DNA of 25,725 nucleotides from a virus. The DNA is taken from IMG/VR virus record IMGVR_UViG_3300031857_001230, positions 1-25,725 of that record, one strand, 5' to 3'. The translations under genes were made by a program, and so were the position numbers. Positions 8,720-22,173 of this stretch are shown one piece after another. The notes under the pieces are model-generated. The model was not told the origin of the DNA and searched no databases. It worked only from the letters and a program-made list of their open reading frames with translations. The first letter of the stretch is position 1. The number at the start of each line of letters is the position of its first letter.

Positions 8720-10606
8720 CTATCCATACATATCCTGCCACTGCTCTTGATAGGCAGCGTCTAGGTTAACTGATTGTCTCTTTGACAGTTGAGCCTTGGT
8801 AGCCCAACGGTTTTCTTTATATCGGTTTGTAAATGATGCAGCCTGCATAAGTTCTTGCACACGCAAGACTGCAAACCACAAAGCCATAACACAGTCAGTC
8901 TTACCCTTAGTGTTTGGTCTCCACGTCATTAACTGTTGGAGCAAGGCTTTCATACCTTCTGAACCATCGGTTGAAGGAAATTCAATTGAGTTGTTGTTTT
9001 GGAACTTACCTTCACGGAGTGTGCCAAAGAAGTTTGACATAGAGGCAACACCTAGGTTGATATCCCATTTGTTCTTACCAGTAAAATGTGGCTTTAAGTC
9101 ACAACCATACTGGGCAAGCCAGTTACGCAAATCATCATCTAGGGCATAACCCTTCTGGTGTGCGTTAATTTCTACACGCAATTCATTAGGTCGGTATCTT
9201 TCAACCAACTCTTCAATGGTATTGCGAATCTTTTGCGGGGTAGGTTCGCCCATGTTGATGCAGTCAAGAACATATATACGACCATCGAGGGCGTTGTAGT
9301 TAATAACCACAAAAGCAGAGTGGCCTGCCATAGCAGGGTCAAAGCCAATGATGGTATAACCACGCACTTGGGCAGGATGTCCTGGCTTATCTGGGTCAAG
9401 TGGTCCGCGCTTACGCATTCCATTTACACAACCTTGTACCAGAGGAGCAGCAAAAATAGAATCTTCTGCTATGTCTTCCTGCTGGTAGACCAGCGCCCAG
9501 GTAGAGGCGGTAACTTCACCGCGTCGTTTGTGAAGGGCTGGCCCGTCCCATTTAGGATATAAACCTTCTTCATCTGGAGTATCATCGTCTCCATCCCAAG
9601 GGATGTCAGACTTAGGCCAGAGTGTAACCCAATCTTCTTTCTTTTCTTTATACTCTAAAACCGCAGGCATTCCCATATAGGTAAATGGGCTCTTTCCGTT
9701 TGACCAATACTTCGGGTCACGCAGTTCTTTATAAAAGTCAGTAGGTGCAATACGGGTTCCTACGATAAGGAGTTTACCGTTCTTGCCCAGACGGGTAATA
9801 ACTTCCTTCTGCAGCCAGTTGATTTGCTTCTCATACTCATGGGCGTTGGAAGTGGTAATGCAGTCGTCTAGGATAATCAGGTCAGCACGAGCACCGTAAA
9901 TCTGACCGCCCATACCAAGGGCTTGAATGGTTGGGTCTTTCTCACTTGAATCACGCGCATCGCCACCAAGGTAGACGGTATCTACACGCCAGGTATCTGA
10001 GTCTGCTTTCCAACCCCCTTCAGGACCAAAGGTGTTTTGCATCTTTTGGTAACGGGGGTGAGACAATCTCTGCTTAACAGAGTATACGAACTCGCGTGCT
10101 TTGTTCAACGTCTTAGAAACCACAATGATGCGGACGTTCGAGTTGATGGCGATACGATAGGTTGAATAGTTCACTGTAACCACAGTGGACTTGGCATGCT
10201 CTGGAGGTACATTGACCAGCATACGGGTGGCATCCCCTGGGTCATAGGTCATAGAGGGGTGGAGCCAAGAAGGTTCATCGCCTTCTATCAAATCAATCCA
10301 GTCCTGATGATGGGGAAATACTTTAGAACCTAAGTATAGTTCCGAGAACTGAGCAAAGGTAATCTCATCCTTGGGGATACCAAGGGCCATTAGGGAATTG
10401 GACTTAGAGTCTATCTTAGCCTGTTCTAAACGGCGAGCAAAGTCGGCATCTCGAAGAATCCATACTCGCGCCGTATCGGGCTTCTTGCCCACCTTAGCCA
10501 TAGCATTTGCCAAGGACATTCCCTCAGATACCAGGTCAAGCACCTGCTGCTTATCGGCAGCCGACTTCTGGGTCTTGGCGTTATCAGGCCCCTTTATAAA
10601 CGTCAT
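8720..10606 (-). CDS. Terminase large subunit (packaging ATPase and nuclease)
   Basis: TerL powers DNA translocation into the prohead and cuts the concatemer. The 628-residue product begins with a helix-turn-helix-like segment (residues 20-55), which may stand in for small-subunit DNA recognition; no separate terS is visible here. The ATPase part has a variant Walker A, PPEHAKS (134-140), Walker B LIILDD (243-248) and a coupling motif LLIVGTR (279-285). The RNase H-like nuclease part shows Asp423 (IIGFDPA), Glu479 (RVEI) and Asp571 (TDCVMA), a plausible metal-binding triad. ATG 10606 has AGGGG five bases upstream. It is the first gene of the minus-strand late block, and its upstream region is the large noncoding region shared with the divergent early operon. 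Confidence 0.95.
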   Translation of the reverse strand: MTFIKGPDNAKTQKSAADKQQVLDLVSEGMSLANAMAKVGKKPDTARVWILRDADFARRLEQAKIDSKSNSLMALGIPKDEITFAQFSELYLGSKVFPHHQDWIDLIEGDEPSWLHPSMTYDPGDATRMLVNVPPEHAKSTVVTVNYSTYRIAINSNVRIIVVSKTLNKAREFVYSVKQRLSHPRYQKMQNTFGPEGGWKADSDTWRVDTVYLGGDARDSSEKDPTIQALGMGGQIYGARADLIILDDCITTSNAHEYEKQINWLQKEVITRLGKNGKLLIVGTRIAPTDFYKELRDPKYWSNGKSPFTYMGMPAVLEYKEKKEDWVTLWPKSDIPWDGDDDTPDEEGLYPKWDGPALHKRRGEVTASTWALVYQQEDIAEDSIFAAPLVQGCVNGMRKRGPLDPDKPGHPAQVRGYTIIGFDPAMAGHSAFVVINYNALDGRIYVLDCINMGEPTPQKIRNTIEELVERYRPNELRVEINAHQKGYALDDDLRNWLAQYGCDLKPHFTGKNKWDINLGVASMSNFFGTLREGKFQNNNSIEFPSTDGSEGMKALLQQLMTWRPNTKGKTDCVMALWFAVLRVQELMQAASFTNRYKENRWATKAQLSKRQSVNLDAAYQEQWQDMYG

Positions 10607-10640
10607 TTCATCCCCTAGTTTTGGACAGAGTACACCTGCC

Positions 10641-10672
10641 TTGTAACAGATTATTACAGACTATTGTAACAG
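10641..10672. promoter_or_regulatory. Repeat and palindrome upstream of terminase, candidate operator
   Basis: TTGTAACAG occurs twice, at 10641-10649 and 10664-10672. Between and partly within these lies the inverted repeat TTACA-N6-TGTAA (10654-10669). It sits 35-65 bases upstream of the terminase ATG, where a regulator controlling the late block would bind. No convincing -35/-10 pair is visible for the late direction, so late transcription may need a phage-encoded factor. The operator role is inferred from position and symmetry only. Confidence 0.35.
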
Positions 10673-10737
10673 GATGAGTAAGGCTATAAAAAGACTTACG
10701 AATCTATTTTACTGTCTACTATATATTAATCCGTTCA

Positions 10738-10785
10738 AACAGGTCAAACGAACATTTAGGATAGAAATATATTAAAAGACCTGTT
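10738..10785. repeat. 8-bp inverted repeat AACAGGTC/GACCTGTT
   Basis: AACAGGTC at 10738-10745 is the exact reverse complement of GACCTGTT at 10778-10785, with 32 AT-rich bases between. It could be a split operator (looping) or the base of an AT-rich stem-loop near the start of the structured region. It lies between the terminase-side operator candidate and the dense hairpin region, that is, in the likely divergent promoter zone. No function is proven. Confidence 0.4.
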
Positions 10786-11081
10786 CAGAAGGGGGGTACT
10801 ATTGTACAGAAATATTTTTGGTAGAGATACTCTACTATAGTCAGAAACAAATTAAACAATCTGGGGTCTAATCGACCCACAGATAGTTCAATACTGCCGT
10901 GCAGTAGTACTATAGTCTGGATTGCTGAGCAGACAGCAGTCTAGGCCGCAGTAAAACAATATGTCTGCGTCCCAGTTTAAATGCATATATAGACTGCGAC
11001 TGCATAACTGACAGGCTACCCCAATACAATTGGGAAGTATCCCAAACCCTCAGCCTGCCGATGGCTAATGACTTAAATTTT

Positions 11082-11141
11082 CCGCTTAGCAAAAGATGTT
11101 AGCCAGCAGTGCAAGGCACTGACTGCCTAACTGCTAAGCGG
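11082..11141 (+). other. 60-base hairpin within the structured noncoding region
   Basis: The outer stem CCGCTTAGCA/TGCTAAGCGG is 10 perfect pairs (11082-11091 with 11132-11141). After a six-base bulge (AAAGAT) come GTTAG/CTAAC, a C-C mismatch, CAG/CTG, a bulged A, and CAGTGC/GCACTG closing an AAG loop. That makes 24 Watson-Crick pairs, far more than chance pairing in noncoding DNA. It lacks a following T-run, so it is not a simple terminator. Confidence 0.7.
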
Positions 11142-11146
11142 GTTGT

Positions 11147-11182
11147 GTAATCTGGTGCGTCTGAAGCCGCACAGCAGATTAC
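11147..11182 (+). other. 36-base hairpin within the structured noncoding region
   Basis: GTAATCTG (11147-11154) pairs with CAGATTAC (11175-11182), and GTGCG (11155-11159) with CGCAC (11168-11172). There is a two-base AG bulge and an eight-base loop. It directly follows the 60-base hairpin with a five-base spacer, as expected for neighbouring arms of one RNA. Confidence 0.65.
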
Positions 11183-11204
11183 CTACCACCACACACAGTC
11201 TTCT

Positions 11205-11265
11205 AGTTGCGCTATTGGCAGAATTGCCAGCCTATTGCTGGACTAATTCTACCAATGCAGCAACT
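11205..11265 (+). other. 61-base hairpin within the structured noncoding region
   Basis: AGTTGC/GCAACT forms the base, then a three-base internal loop, ATTGG/CCAAT, one C-A mismatch, AGAATT/AATTCT, a small internal loop, and CCAGC/GCTGG closing a CTATT loop. This gives 22 Watson-Crick pairs, with G-U pairs possible in the plus-strand transcript inside two of the internal loops. Confidence 0.7.
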
Positions 11266-11298
11266 GACCGTATCACACTCAGTCAAACTGGCTAGACA

Positions 11299-11396
11299 GG
11301 GGCATACCCTGCCAATCGATTCCCGCATTACCATGCTTGGCCGCGTCTAAAGACCGCGCCCGAATCTTCATAAGCGGCAGGGCTTATCTATGCCCC
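11299..11396 (+). other. Long-range 15-bp helix domain of the structured region
   Basis: GGGGCATA (11299-11306) pairs with TATGCCCC (11389-11396), and the adjoining CCCTGCC (11307-11313) pairs with GGCAGGG (11376-11382), with one six-base bulge CTTATC. Inside are GATTC/GAATC (11318-11322 with 11362-11366), a GCAT/ATGC hairpin (11325-11336) and a bulged GC-rich hairpin (11339-11360). Two smaller hairpins use the same bases (11297-11311 and 11370-11387), so the domain could have alternative folds. Confidence 0.6.
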
Positions 11397-11525
11397 AAAC
11401 TACGTCTATCCAGTTCTGCGCCCAGCATTTCATGCGGGGGCTTGCTCGGCCCTCGCCGAGTGACAGGTGTGATTCGGACGCGAAGACTCCGTGTGGGGTT
11501 GATATTACTACGAAAGGATATACAG

Positions 11526-11927
11526 ATGAAAGAAGTACAGTACACAGAAGCAGATTCACTCACAGTAACTAACACCTGCCCTGAATGTATCGCACAAGAA
11601 CAACTATGTACCGAATGCGTAGATACAGCCGATGCCCGACTTACCGACAAGGCATACGGCTTAGTAGATGAAGGCAACCTTCAATACAAGTACCAATGGC
11701 TACTCGTTACAGAACCAAGTGGTCATGACTGGACAGACCGAGATAGCGAATTCAAGGAGCCAATCGTACTACTACAGGACGGTGGAGTGTATGAGGAACT
11801 ATGGGAGTTGGACGATATGCGCCAGCGTTCACGAGAGACTGAGTGCCAATGGTGCCATATGATGACAGTCAAGATATACAACGACTGCCAATCCTGCGAC
11901 AAACCACTAGAAACAAACGTAAGATAA
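11526..11927 (+). CDS. Cys-rich small protein, probable zinc binder; first early gene
   Basis: The 133-residue protein carries two paired Cys motifs near the N-terminus (CPEC and CTEC, about residues 18-32) and two near the C-terminus (CQWC and CQSC, about residues 106-126). This suggests one or two zinc-binding ribbons around an acidic middle. I chose ATG 11526, which has AAGGA seven to eight bases upstream. A longer in-frame extension back to 11337 would run through the hairpin region, has no ribosome site and has unnatural Arg/Ser-rich sequence. It is the first protein gene of the plus-strand block after the structured region and is followed by a strong hairpin. Function is unknown; small zinc proteins at the start of early operons often act on host transcription or DNA, but that is inference. 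Confidence 0.75.
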   Translation: MKEVQYTEADSLTVTNTCPECIAQEQLCTECVDTADARLTDKAYGLVDEGNLQYKYQWLLVTEPSGHDWTDRDSEFKEPIVLLQDGGVYEELWELDDMRQRSRETECQWCHMMTVKIYNDCQSCDKPLETNVR

Positions 11928-20181: not shown

Positions 20182-20833
20182 TTATAAACCAGATGAACTA
20201 TGGTGTGTAGGTGATGAACTAGATGCACCAGAGCCTAGCCGTTGGAACAAGGGCATGGCTGGTGAGTACGCAGGTACTCTACAACAAGGCATTGACGAGA
20301 CAAAGCAAATTATAGGTGAGTTTAGAAAAGCATTAGGAAAGAAACCATTTTATATTCAGCGGTCTAATCATACAGACCGCATTGACACTTACATTCGTAA
20401 GTATGCCCCAGCGTTCAGCAGTCTCAAATCATTAGAGATTGAAGAACTACTGGGGTATAACTCTTTAGGCGTAACTTACTTACATAAGATGCACGAATTA
20501 CTACCTGGATGGGTAATGGCACACGGAGATGAAGGCAAGTTATCCCAATCTCCAGGGGCCACAGCCTTGTCATTAGCAAAGCGCTTAGGCAAGTCAGTAG
20601 TCTGCGGACACACGCATCGCGTGGGGCTGCAGCATGAAACAGTTGGCATGTATGGCAAGACCAACACCTTGTTCGGACTCGAAGTCGGACACATGATGGA
20701 TATGAAACAGGCTGACTACCTATCTGCAGGTACAGCCAACTGGCAGCATGGTATTGGAATCCTAGTCCAATCAGGCAATAAGGTAACTCCATATGCAGTA
20801 CCTATTGTCAATGGGGAGATTAATCTTCCGTGA
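20087..20833 (+). CDS. Calcineurin-like metallophosphoesterase
   Basis: The 248-residue enzyme carries the metallophosphoesterase motifs in order: VVILSDLQIP (Asp), CVGDELD (Gly-Asp), RSNHTDR (Asn-His), AHGDEG, and the closing VCGHTHRVG. The two-metal site could hydrolyse phosphodiesters or phosphomonoesters; in phages the substrate is generally unknown. I chose ATG 20087 because the conserved KRVVILSDLQ follows at once; GTG 20057 or 20072 are alternatives and GGAAGG precedes both the latter and ATG. It overlaps the NMAD1-like gene by 95 bases, and its stop overlaps the next GTG. Confidence 0.85.
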   Translation: MTKQKRVVILSDLQIPYQNNAIVQAALDFISDYKPDELWCVGDELDAPEPSRWNKGMAGEYAGTLQQGIDETKQIIGEFRKALGKKPFYIQRSNHTDRIDTYIRKYAPAFSSLKSLEIEELLGYNSLGVTYLHKMHELLPGWVMAHGDEGKLSQSPGATALSLAKRLGKSVVCGHTHRVGLQHETVGMYGKTNTLFGLEVGHMMDMKQADYLSAGTANWQHGIGILVQSGNKVTPYAVPIVNGEINLP

Positions 20834-21468
20834 ATTATCTAGAAGAATACAGTGAGATGGTTCAACAACTATCTGCTGAGTATCACAAACGTTATGGCAT
20901 GCTAGAACGTGATGATATTAGGCAAGAGTTATGGCTATGGTTCGTTGCTCATCCCCGTAAGTTCCAAGAGTGGGATAAGTTAGAACAAAAAGATAAAGAT
21001 AAGTTAATTGCTAAATCATTGCGTAATGCTGCCCTTAAATATTGCGAGAAAGAGAAAGCCCGTAAGTCTGGTTACGATTCATCCGACCTTTATTACTATG
21101 ATGCCACAGTTGTTGAAGCATTCCTACCTTCAATTATTGCAGGTACATATTCAATTCCAGTTAGCATTCAAGACCTAAACGCTAAGTTTGGAACAGGTAA
21201 CGATGCAGAAGGTAACAACTGGTTGGCTTTACGCAGCGATATATCCCATGCATTTGAAAAACTAAGCGAAGCCAAGCAGAATGTTCTTCGCTTACGCTTT
21301 AGCATAGACTCACCTGACTGGGCATTACTAGCCAAAGATATGGATAGTACCCCAGATGGTGCACGCATGAAGGTACAGCGTGCGATAAGTTCTTTAATTA
21401 AGAATCTAGGTGGATGGCGACCATACCACGAAGATGATGTAGTGAAAGAAGAAGAACATGCAGTCTAA
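20830..21468 (+). CDS. Sigma-factor-like regulator
   Basis: The 212-residue protein has a first half resembling sigma region 2 (MLERDDIRQELWLWFVAHPR at residues 24-43, then AAKSLRNAALKYCEKEKARK-like basic helices). Its C-terminal third has a region-4-like helix-turn-helix (FEKLSEAKQNVLRLRF, then LLAKDMDSTPDGARMKVQRA). It is probably a divergent phage sigma factor or anti-host transcription regulator that could direct late transcription. The region 2.3/2.4 residues are not clearly present. The start is GTG 20830, which overlaps the upstream TGA. From memory, sigma-like proteins of this kind sit next to phosphoesterase genes in other actinophages. Confidence 0.6.
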   Translation: MNYLEEYSEMVQQLSAEYHKRYGMLERDDIRQELWLWFVAHPRKFQEWDKLEQKDKDKLIAKSLRNAALKYCEKEKARKSGYDSSDLYYYDATVVEAFLPSIIAGTYSIPVSIQDLNAKFGTGNDAEGNNWLALRSDISHAFEKLSEAKQNVLRLRFSIDSPDWALLAKDMDSTPDGARMKVQRAISSLIKNLGGWRPYHEDDVVKEEEHAV

Positions 21469-21900: not shown

Positions 21901-22173
21901 GTGGATGAAATAAAGTGGATGGACCAAGCCAACTGTGCAAGCACAGATACAGAGCAGTTCTTCACTGTAGGTGAATCAACTATGTACGACAACCTTCCCA
22001 TGATAAAAAGAATTTGCTCAGCATGTCCAGTCATATCAGAGTGTAAAGAATATTCCTTGCGCTACTACGTGCTAGGATGGTGGGCAAATACATCCGAGAA
22101 GATTCGGAGAGAAGAAAGAAAAAGACTAGGTATCACAGCGATACCGCTTGTGTCAGATAGGATATATGAATGA
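21901..22173 (+). CDS. WhiB-like iron-sulfur transcription regulator
   Basis: The 90-residue protein has the four-Cys WhiB arrangement: Cys12 (MDQANCAS), then CSACPVISEC (Cys39, Cys42, Cys48), which should ligate a [4Fe-4S] cluster. A basic C-terminus (SEKIRREERKRLG) suits DNA contact. The usual GVWGG turn is replaced by GWWANTS, a notable deviation. WhiB proteins act with the primary sigma factor in actinobacteria; phage versions, such as that of mycobacteriophage TM4, can block host WhiB function and superinfection. Start GTG 21901 follows AGGAGG. The gene overlaps the next by ATGA. It is the best host marker in the window. Confidence 0.9.
   Translation: MDEIKWMDQANCASTDTEQFFTVGESTMYDNLPMIKRICSACPVISECKEYSLRYYVLGWWANTSEKIRREERKRLGITAIPLVSDRIYE

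Follow-up and report, generated by a model that had tools for sequence, protein, structure and literature searches.

The gene-free region between the terminase gene and the early operon of this phage is probably a genome-end (packaging) locus, in which a direct terminal repeat (DTR) lies between two terminase cuts and the hairpins act as DNA. The window, the 25,725 nt stretch of viral DNA that we analysed, had been suggested in a preliminary description to carry a large non-coding RNA reminiscent of GOLLD and ROOL at this place; we favour DNA hairpins at a genome-end or packaging locus over such an RNA. The structure is large and really conserved, it corresponds to no known RNA, and its first third is probably not an RNA. 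What is of a known kind is the DTR-type genome end; what is new is the covarying hairpin array. The features of the region are collected in Table 1.

Table 1. Features of the terminase–orfA region (positions are those of the window)
Feature	Position	Strand	Basis or remark
Terminase large subunit gene	8720..10606	-	PHROG 38, E 1e-66; start of leftward structural operon
Conserved terminase-side spacer with inverted repeat	10607..10802	.	Alignment of relatives; 71-88% identity to close relatives
Fixed-length element TGTAC...GATAC...TTAAACAATCTGGGGTC	10803..10868	+	Predicted terminase recognition/cleavage element
Predicted direct terminal repeat, ~107 bp	10831..10936	.	Contig ends; right limit 10934-10939
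Hairpin P1, inside predicted DTR	10851..10892	.	RNAalifold with covariation; self-versus-cross complementarity
Hairpin P2 region, across predicted second cut	10910..10948	.	Fold and alignment of relatives
Hairpin P3, just outside predicted DTR	10944..10972	.	Self-versus-cross complementarity 35 vs 12
Hairpin module CAGGC...GCCTG with pyrimidine-rich internal loop	11012..11057	.	Read from folds
Helix A (CCGCTTAG/CTAAGCGG) enclosing hairpin	11082..11142	.	Alignment with L117, L150, L354, L244
Hairpin B, GTAATCTG[GTGCG]TCTGAAGC[CGCAC]AGCAGATTAC	11148..11182	.	Conserved loop TCTRAAGC, covarying stem
Multibranch domain with long-range closing helix C (ACCACACACAGTCTTC/GAAGACTCCGTGTGG)	11187..11497	.	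Shared with L117
orfA, first gene of rightward (early) operon	11526..11927	+	ATG at 11526; weak zinc-ribbon similarity

A conserved, predicted genome-end site upstream of the terminase gene

The 919 bases from the terminase start to the orfA ATG (10607-11525) contained no credible gene, as the preliminary description had stated, and its guess of a phage from freshwater was right: the nearest named relatives found were the cultured Planktophila phages E7 and F5 (terminase identity 59.5%; PMC10202952), followed by 29 Streptomyces phages (~42%). The window phage groups with phages of freshwater actinobacteria. Using the terminase as query we collected 80 viral contigs, in which the complete regions were syntenic, with terminase, a gene-free spacer, and then orfA or another gene. 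The spacer mostly measured 570-1260 nt, with one of ~2.2 kb. Homologs of orfA, whose score for Pfam Zn_ribbon_6 was below the cut-off, were present in most relatives whose region was complete, and the adjoining early/replication operon encodes a helicase and a primase.

The terminase-side spacer (10607-10802) is probably divergent-promoter/operator DNA. It holds an inverted repeat that is kept in relatives, GTTC AAACAGGTCAAAC GAAC at 10733-10753; this conserved repeat upstream of the terminase (GTTCAAACAGGTCAAACGAAC) is a possible operator. Elsewhere in the locus, three relatives (L025, L020 and L027) carried extra small genes between the element and orfA, a place that also accepts cargo, and in L025 a DUF4326-like reading frame was noticed there by eye. 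The window also encodes a Sigma-K-like factor (20830-21468, PHROG 354), followed by a WhiB-like gene recognized by eye (21901-22173); both have been reported for related cultured phages too.

From 10803, all relatives share the pattern TGTAC...AA...T...G.TAC...TT(A/T)A..A..TCTGGGGTC. TGTAC and GGGTC were spaced by exactly 61 nt in 42 of 43 distinct sequences, with most of the letters between them varying. A scan of all viral contigs with the corresponding IUPAC pattern returned at least 119 stretches in more than 100 contigs. Among the matches listed, nearly all elements preceded the same terminase by 195-310 nt, a few loci had no terminase in view and one element was at 409, behind a tRNA gene. 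The homology search likewise placed the terminase beside the element in nearly all relatives. The same pattern matched four times in 84,980 bacterial and archaeal genomes, and these matches were dismissed as chance occurrences in unrelated sequence. We also considered TGTAC-N18-GNTAC as a promoter and rejected it, as the window held no second copy of the full element and promoter-like matches occurred at chance level.

Five Streptomyces phage genomes of the Beephvirinae (Immanuel3, FlowerPower, Manuel, WRightOn and Abafar), whose terminase is ~42% identical, are deposited as linear molecules with exact DTRs, which measure 275, 253, 276, 264 and 396 bp across the group. When their ends are joined, terminase and early genes are again separated by this spacer. 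GGGGACT^CACTCC marks the start of the DTR in four of the five, with the motif GTTAACAACCC.GGGGTC 22-24 nt inside; Abafar has the same sequence, with an offset deposited boundary. The counterpart in the window is GGTAGAGATAC^TCTAC, 21 nt ahead of TTAAACA, and the spacing from motif to boundary matches that of the four Beephvirinae DTRs. The first terminase cut is predicted from this sequence correspondence at about 10830/10831. Phages E7 and F5 are 96.5% identical up to the matching cut site and 94.6% identical on the far side; between the matching sites, ~190 nt cannot be aligned except for the motif, which in E7 sits in a different hairpin. Between these two phages of one host, it looks as though the whole repeat had been swapped in one piece.

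Metagenome contig ends fell at consistent positions (numbered so that the element's first base, the T of TGTAC, is 1). About 15 independent terminase-side contigs ended at 132-136 (L046, L060, L061, L063, L075, L077, L081, L092, L174, L183, L339, L340, L346, L365 and L366), and ~30 other ends were scattered over the other 450 nt. Six of these contigs (L060, L061, L063, L092, L174 and L346), namely three of the same species from three samples and three others, carried tails composed only of C and T after the true sequence, and the tails were absent from relatives. The Adaptase step of a library kit used at JGI adds such tails to real DNA ends (PMC6511391), and the libraries of the tailed contigs were presumably made with this kit. 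Contigs with C/T-only tails mark physical DNA ends, and could be mined for the termini of many uncultured phages. On the early-gene side, four contigs only (L329, L336, L429 and L406) started at 23-26; L422 was dropped from this set, its element lying at 1307 of its contig.

Taken together, the terminase-side ends at 132-136 and the early-side starts at 23-26 imply that both molecule ends include positions ~28 to 134. Just ahead of the second cut stand GGGCTAC, GGTAGTC, GAGGAC and similar sequences, which by eye resemble those preceding the first (GGTAGATAC). The locus shows the hallmarks of a DTR-type terminus: a conserved site beside the terminase that is homologous to a known terminus, and two overlapping end positions, with the early side thinly populated. 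The cut sites and the repeat are well supported, and we infer that the terminase actually cuts there. The stretch from 10803 to ~10940 is probably a DNA packaging/terminal-repeat site and not part of an RNA.

Covarying hairpins in and beyond the predicted repeat

The region folds far better than expected from its composition. The plus strand of 10800-11525 gave -284 kcal/mol (shuffled mean -207, z -9.4) and the minus strand -309 (shuffled -232, z -10.0), and the distal 519 nt alone reached z ~ -17 against 12 shuffles. Because both strands fold equally well, the energy gives no pointer to a transcript from one strand. The structured, syntenic region was found in dozens of relatives; most of those with a complete region also folded better than shuffles, and 95 deduplicated sequences had a mean z of ~ -3 on both strands, with neither preferred.

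Within the predicted repeat, RIBOSUM-scored RNAalifold of 22 relatives returned 18 pairs for hairpin P1, with strong covariation that was equal on both strands. We also used an alignment-free comparison of complementarity, in which windows of one sequence were set against the same windows of other sequences (self versus cross). P1 scored 38 vs 19 in this test, self exceeded cross at several further places from 200 to 330, and no window pair showed the reverse. A sequence-only alignment of all cores was abandoned, being too divergent to give a consensus structure.

Beyond the repeat, 10940-11515 forms a nested hairpin array whose architecture is common to a distant phage despite sequence turnover. 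The window (11061-11525) and contig L117 are 63.6% identical over 489 columns and independently fold alike, into helix A, hairpin B and helix C closing the multibranch domain. The internal distance of helix C is 301 nt in the window and 300 nt in L117, with almost unrelated interior sequences, and twenty pairs have changed on both sides. Five other contigs (L084, L150, L169, L244 and L352) keep the same outer frame around other interiors. In one subdomain compared across eight homologs, 98.6% of cells were paired and six pairs had changed on both sides, giving 14 double-change cells (0 of 500 shuffles); on the plus strand, six slid controls were devoid of double-side changes. The hairpin within helix A changes its stems on both sides between phages, and in place of the CAGGC...GCCTG module relatives have other hairpins of the same shape. 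The domain is not universal, as many relatives carry genes or other hairpins there. When a profile of the distal domain was iterated, it drifted into orfA; matches confined to its last positions were ignored.

The loop of hairpin B recurs widely. Flanking stems of at least four pairs were present at 51 of 295 TCTRAAGC occurrences, and the hairpin was found with covarying stems in ~25 lineages, lying between the genome-end element and the first gene, on the same strand, wherever both were in view. One contig, L238, has two TCTRAAGC hairpins with different stems in a single leader region.

The helices are thus preserved by compensatory changes, in agreement with the real structure that the preliminary description had claimed. 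The multi-branch junction it reported was recovered as a domain closed by a helix at ~11187-11203/11482-11497, also seen in the distant homolog. Its two long-range helices fared differently: 11299-11313/11376-11396 is largely contained in the minimum-energy fold, whereas 10939-10947/11290-11297 is complementary on paper but absent from the best fold and from the distant homolog.

Base-pair substitutions and the case for an RNA

Structural RNA tolerates G-U pairs, but not A-C. Structures were predicted without G-U, homologs were compared pairwise and interior pairs were counted. Over all helices, the three zones gave 33, 24 and 37 G-T against 42, 34 and 48 A-C. Helices with at least one double change (419 double changes) gave 59 against 70, and the covarying helices of zone 260-620 gave 16 against 25. 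The same test applied to RNase P from 27 genomes yielded 279 against 48, a G-T excess of 5.8:1; the RNase P ratio reversed on the antisense strand in the initial version of the test. Covarying helices that lack a G-T excess indicate that pairing is conserved, but without the mark of a single RNA strand. Compensatory changes were found with no G-U excess over A-C on either strand; the missing excess makes an RNA less likely, and the pattern fits DNA hairpins, or arms kept equal by copying. A simple mismatch count around inverted repeats was discarded because it showed no signal in the rRNA control.

A rightward transcript forming a large structured RNA, either GOLLD/ROOL-like or the early operon's 5' leader, running from near the DTR to before orfA, would account for several observations. 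The shared architecture of the window and L117 with its double changes, and the constant position of the TCTRAAGC hairpin on the coding strand between element and orfA, are both consistent with a transcript, as are the ribosome-binding site and orfA ATG within ~30 nt downstream of the multibranch domain. The distal half lies outside the predicted DTR and contains sequence-conserved single-stranded blocks (GGGTTGTGT and ACCACACACAGTC); this half is sense to the early operon, as a leader would be. A first, simple core count of one-mismatch hairpins (G-U 26 vs A-C 11) suggested the plus strand, but was superseded by the pairwise test with its RNase P control, in which zone 260-620 showed nothing like the RNase P excess. 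The equal fold energies of the two strands in 95 sequences, and the absence of the domain from some relatives, also weigh against an RNA.

Nor was the region assignable to GOLLD, ROOL or another known class. Rfam covariance models, including GOLLD, ROOL and pRNA, had no match at the gathering score in the window; a less stringent search of 10600-11640, with filters relaxed up to E 10, gave only chance-level scores far below the cut-offs, and eight related loci had no match. We regard a large rightward RNA of either kind as unlikely. The window contains no tRNA genes; a tRNA-Trp between terminase and genome-end element in one relative (L035:4846-4917) was the only tRNA in 47 related loci scanned. 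More generally, strong folding and compensatory changes are insufficient to call a large phage RNA, and RNA folds are told apart from DNA folds by comparing G-U with A-C alongside a known-RNA control.

Proposed mechanism, alternatives and known systems

As a genome-end locus, the region would represent a concatemer junction. Terminase would process the replicating concatemer with two cuts, one at about 10830/10831 and a second, which makes the other molecule end, near 10934-10939. With these cuts ~107 bp apart, each packaged molecule would carry the intervening segment twice, once at either end, as its DTR. The hairpins would form on single-stranded or cruciform DNA during repeat duplication and terminase positioning, much as has been proposed for a hairpin at the T7 concatemer junction, and we infer that hairpin DNA is the acting form. 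The nested hairpins of 10940-11515 could belong to the same end-processing/replication-start zone, or to a leader in which arm-to-arm copying maintains the pairing; the distal array may accordingly serve in replication start, in end processing or as an early leader. In an uncircularised genome the early genes have only the sequence right of 10831 upstream, so their promoter should lie here too; a consensus scan for an early-gene promoter gave no match above chance. We speculate, tentatively, that across a whole family of abundant freshwater phages the repeat is duplicated and the terminase positioned by a large piece of folded-DNA machinery, a modular hairpin array several hundred bases long that strand-symmetric compensatory evolution keeps in shape.

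A replication origin with single-strand initiation hairpins beside the packaging site is a rather doubtful alternative. The strand symmetry of the covarying hairpins and the adjoining replication operon, with its helicase and primase genes, would suit an origin. However, neither an initiator gene nor an iteron array was noticed beside the region, and an origin alone leaves the contig ends at fixed positions unexplained.

It is improbable that the inverted repeats were simply kept matching by template switching during replication, as a fold with no selected function. Adjacent double-change blocks with no G-U or A-C preference are the expected trace of arm-to-arm copying, but architecture, loop sequences and spacings have been kept over long divergence, beyond what copying alone would achieve. 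A packaging RNA of the phi29 pRNA type, with its gene at the genome end next to the terminase, would agree with the predicted end beside the terminase gene and with a conserved shape of divergent sequence, but is very improbable given the lack of a match to pRNA or any Rfam family, helices without an RNA signature, and a region much larger than the 174 nt of pRNA.

The genome-end reading allows physical ends and packaging mode to be predicted from metagenome contigs alone. The phages concerned are a dominant, almost uncultured family infecting Nanopelagicales, and the question of repeat duplication becomes approachable through over 150 distinct end regions that covary, together with the cultured phages E7 and F5.

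Of the known systems, phi29 pRNA is likewise a structured non-coding element at a genome end, but the window region has neither its Rfam match nor an RNA signature. GOLLD and ROOL resemble the region in that they are similarly large and densely structured, occur in phages and lakes, and have variable and conserved halves; in contrast to them, the window region has no covariance-model match and no G-U signature, overlaps a predicted packaging site and is not beside a tRNA island, the neighbourhood characteristic of GOLLD. In phage T7, a hairpin has been reported in DNA containing the terminal repeat, and the mechanism of duplication is said to be unsettled, with competing models (PMC4281155). 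T7 and T3 share with the window phage a short non-coding DTR that needs duplication and hairpin DNA at the repeat (PMC4281155), but have no sequence relation to it, and the window array is far larger and covarying.

The closest parallels are found among phages of actinobacteria. E7 and F5 have the same host order, motif and synteny, and the block that varies between them starts where the cut is expected by correspondence with the window, although the terminase is 59.5% identical and the hairpins around the motif differ; genome ends are not reported in the part of PMC10202952 consulted. The Beephvirinae DTRs are longer (253-396 bp, against ~107 bp predicted in the window) and have a different flank at the cut site (GGGGACT^CACTCC, against GGTAGAGATAC^TCTAC), but they lie at the same place upstream of a homologous terminase and share the core motif and its distance from the boundary.
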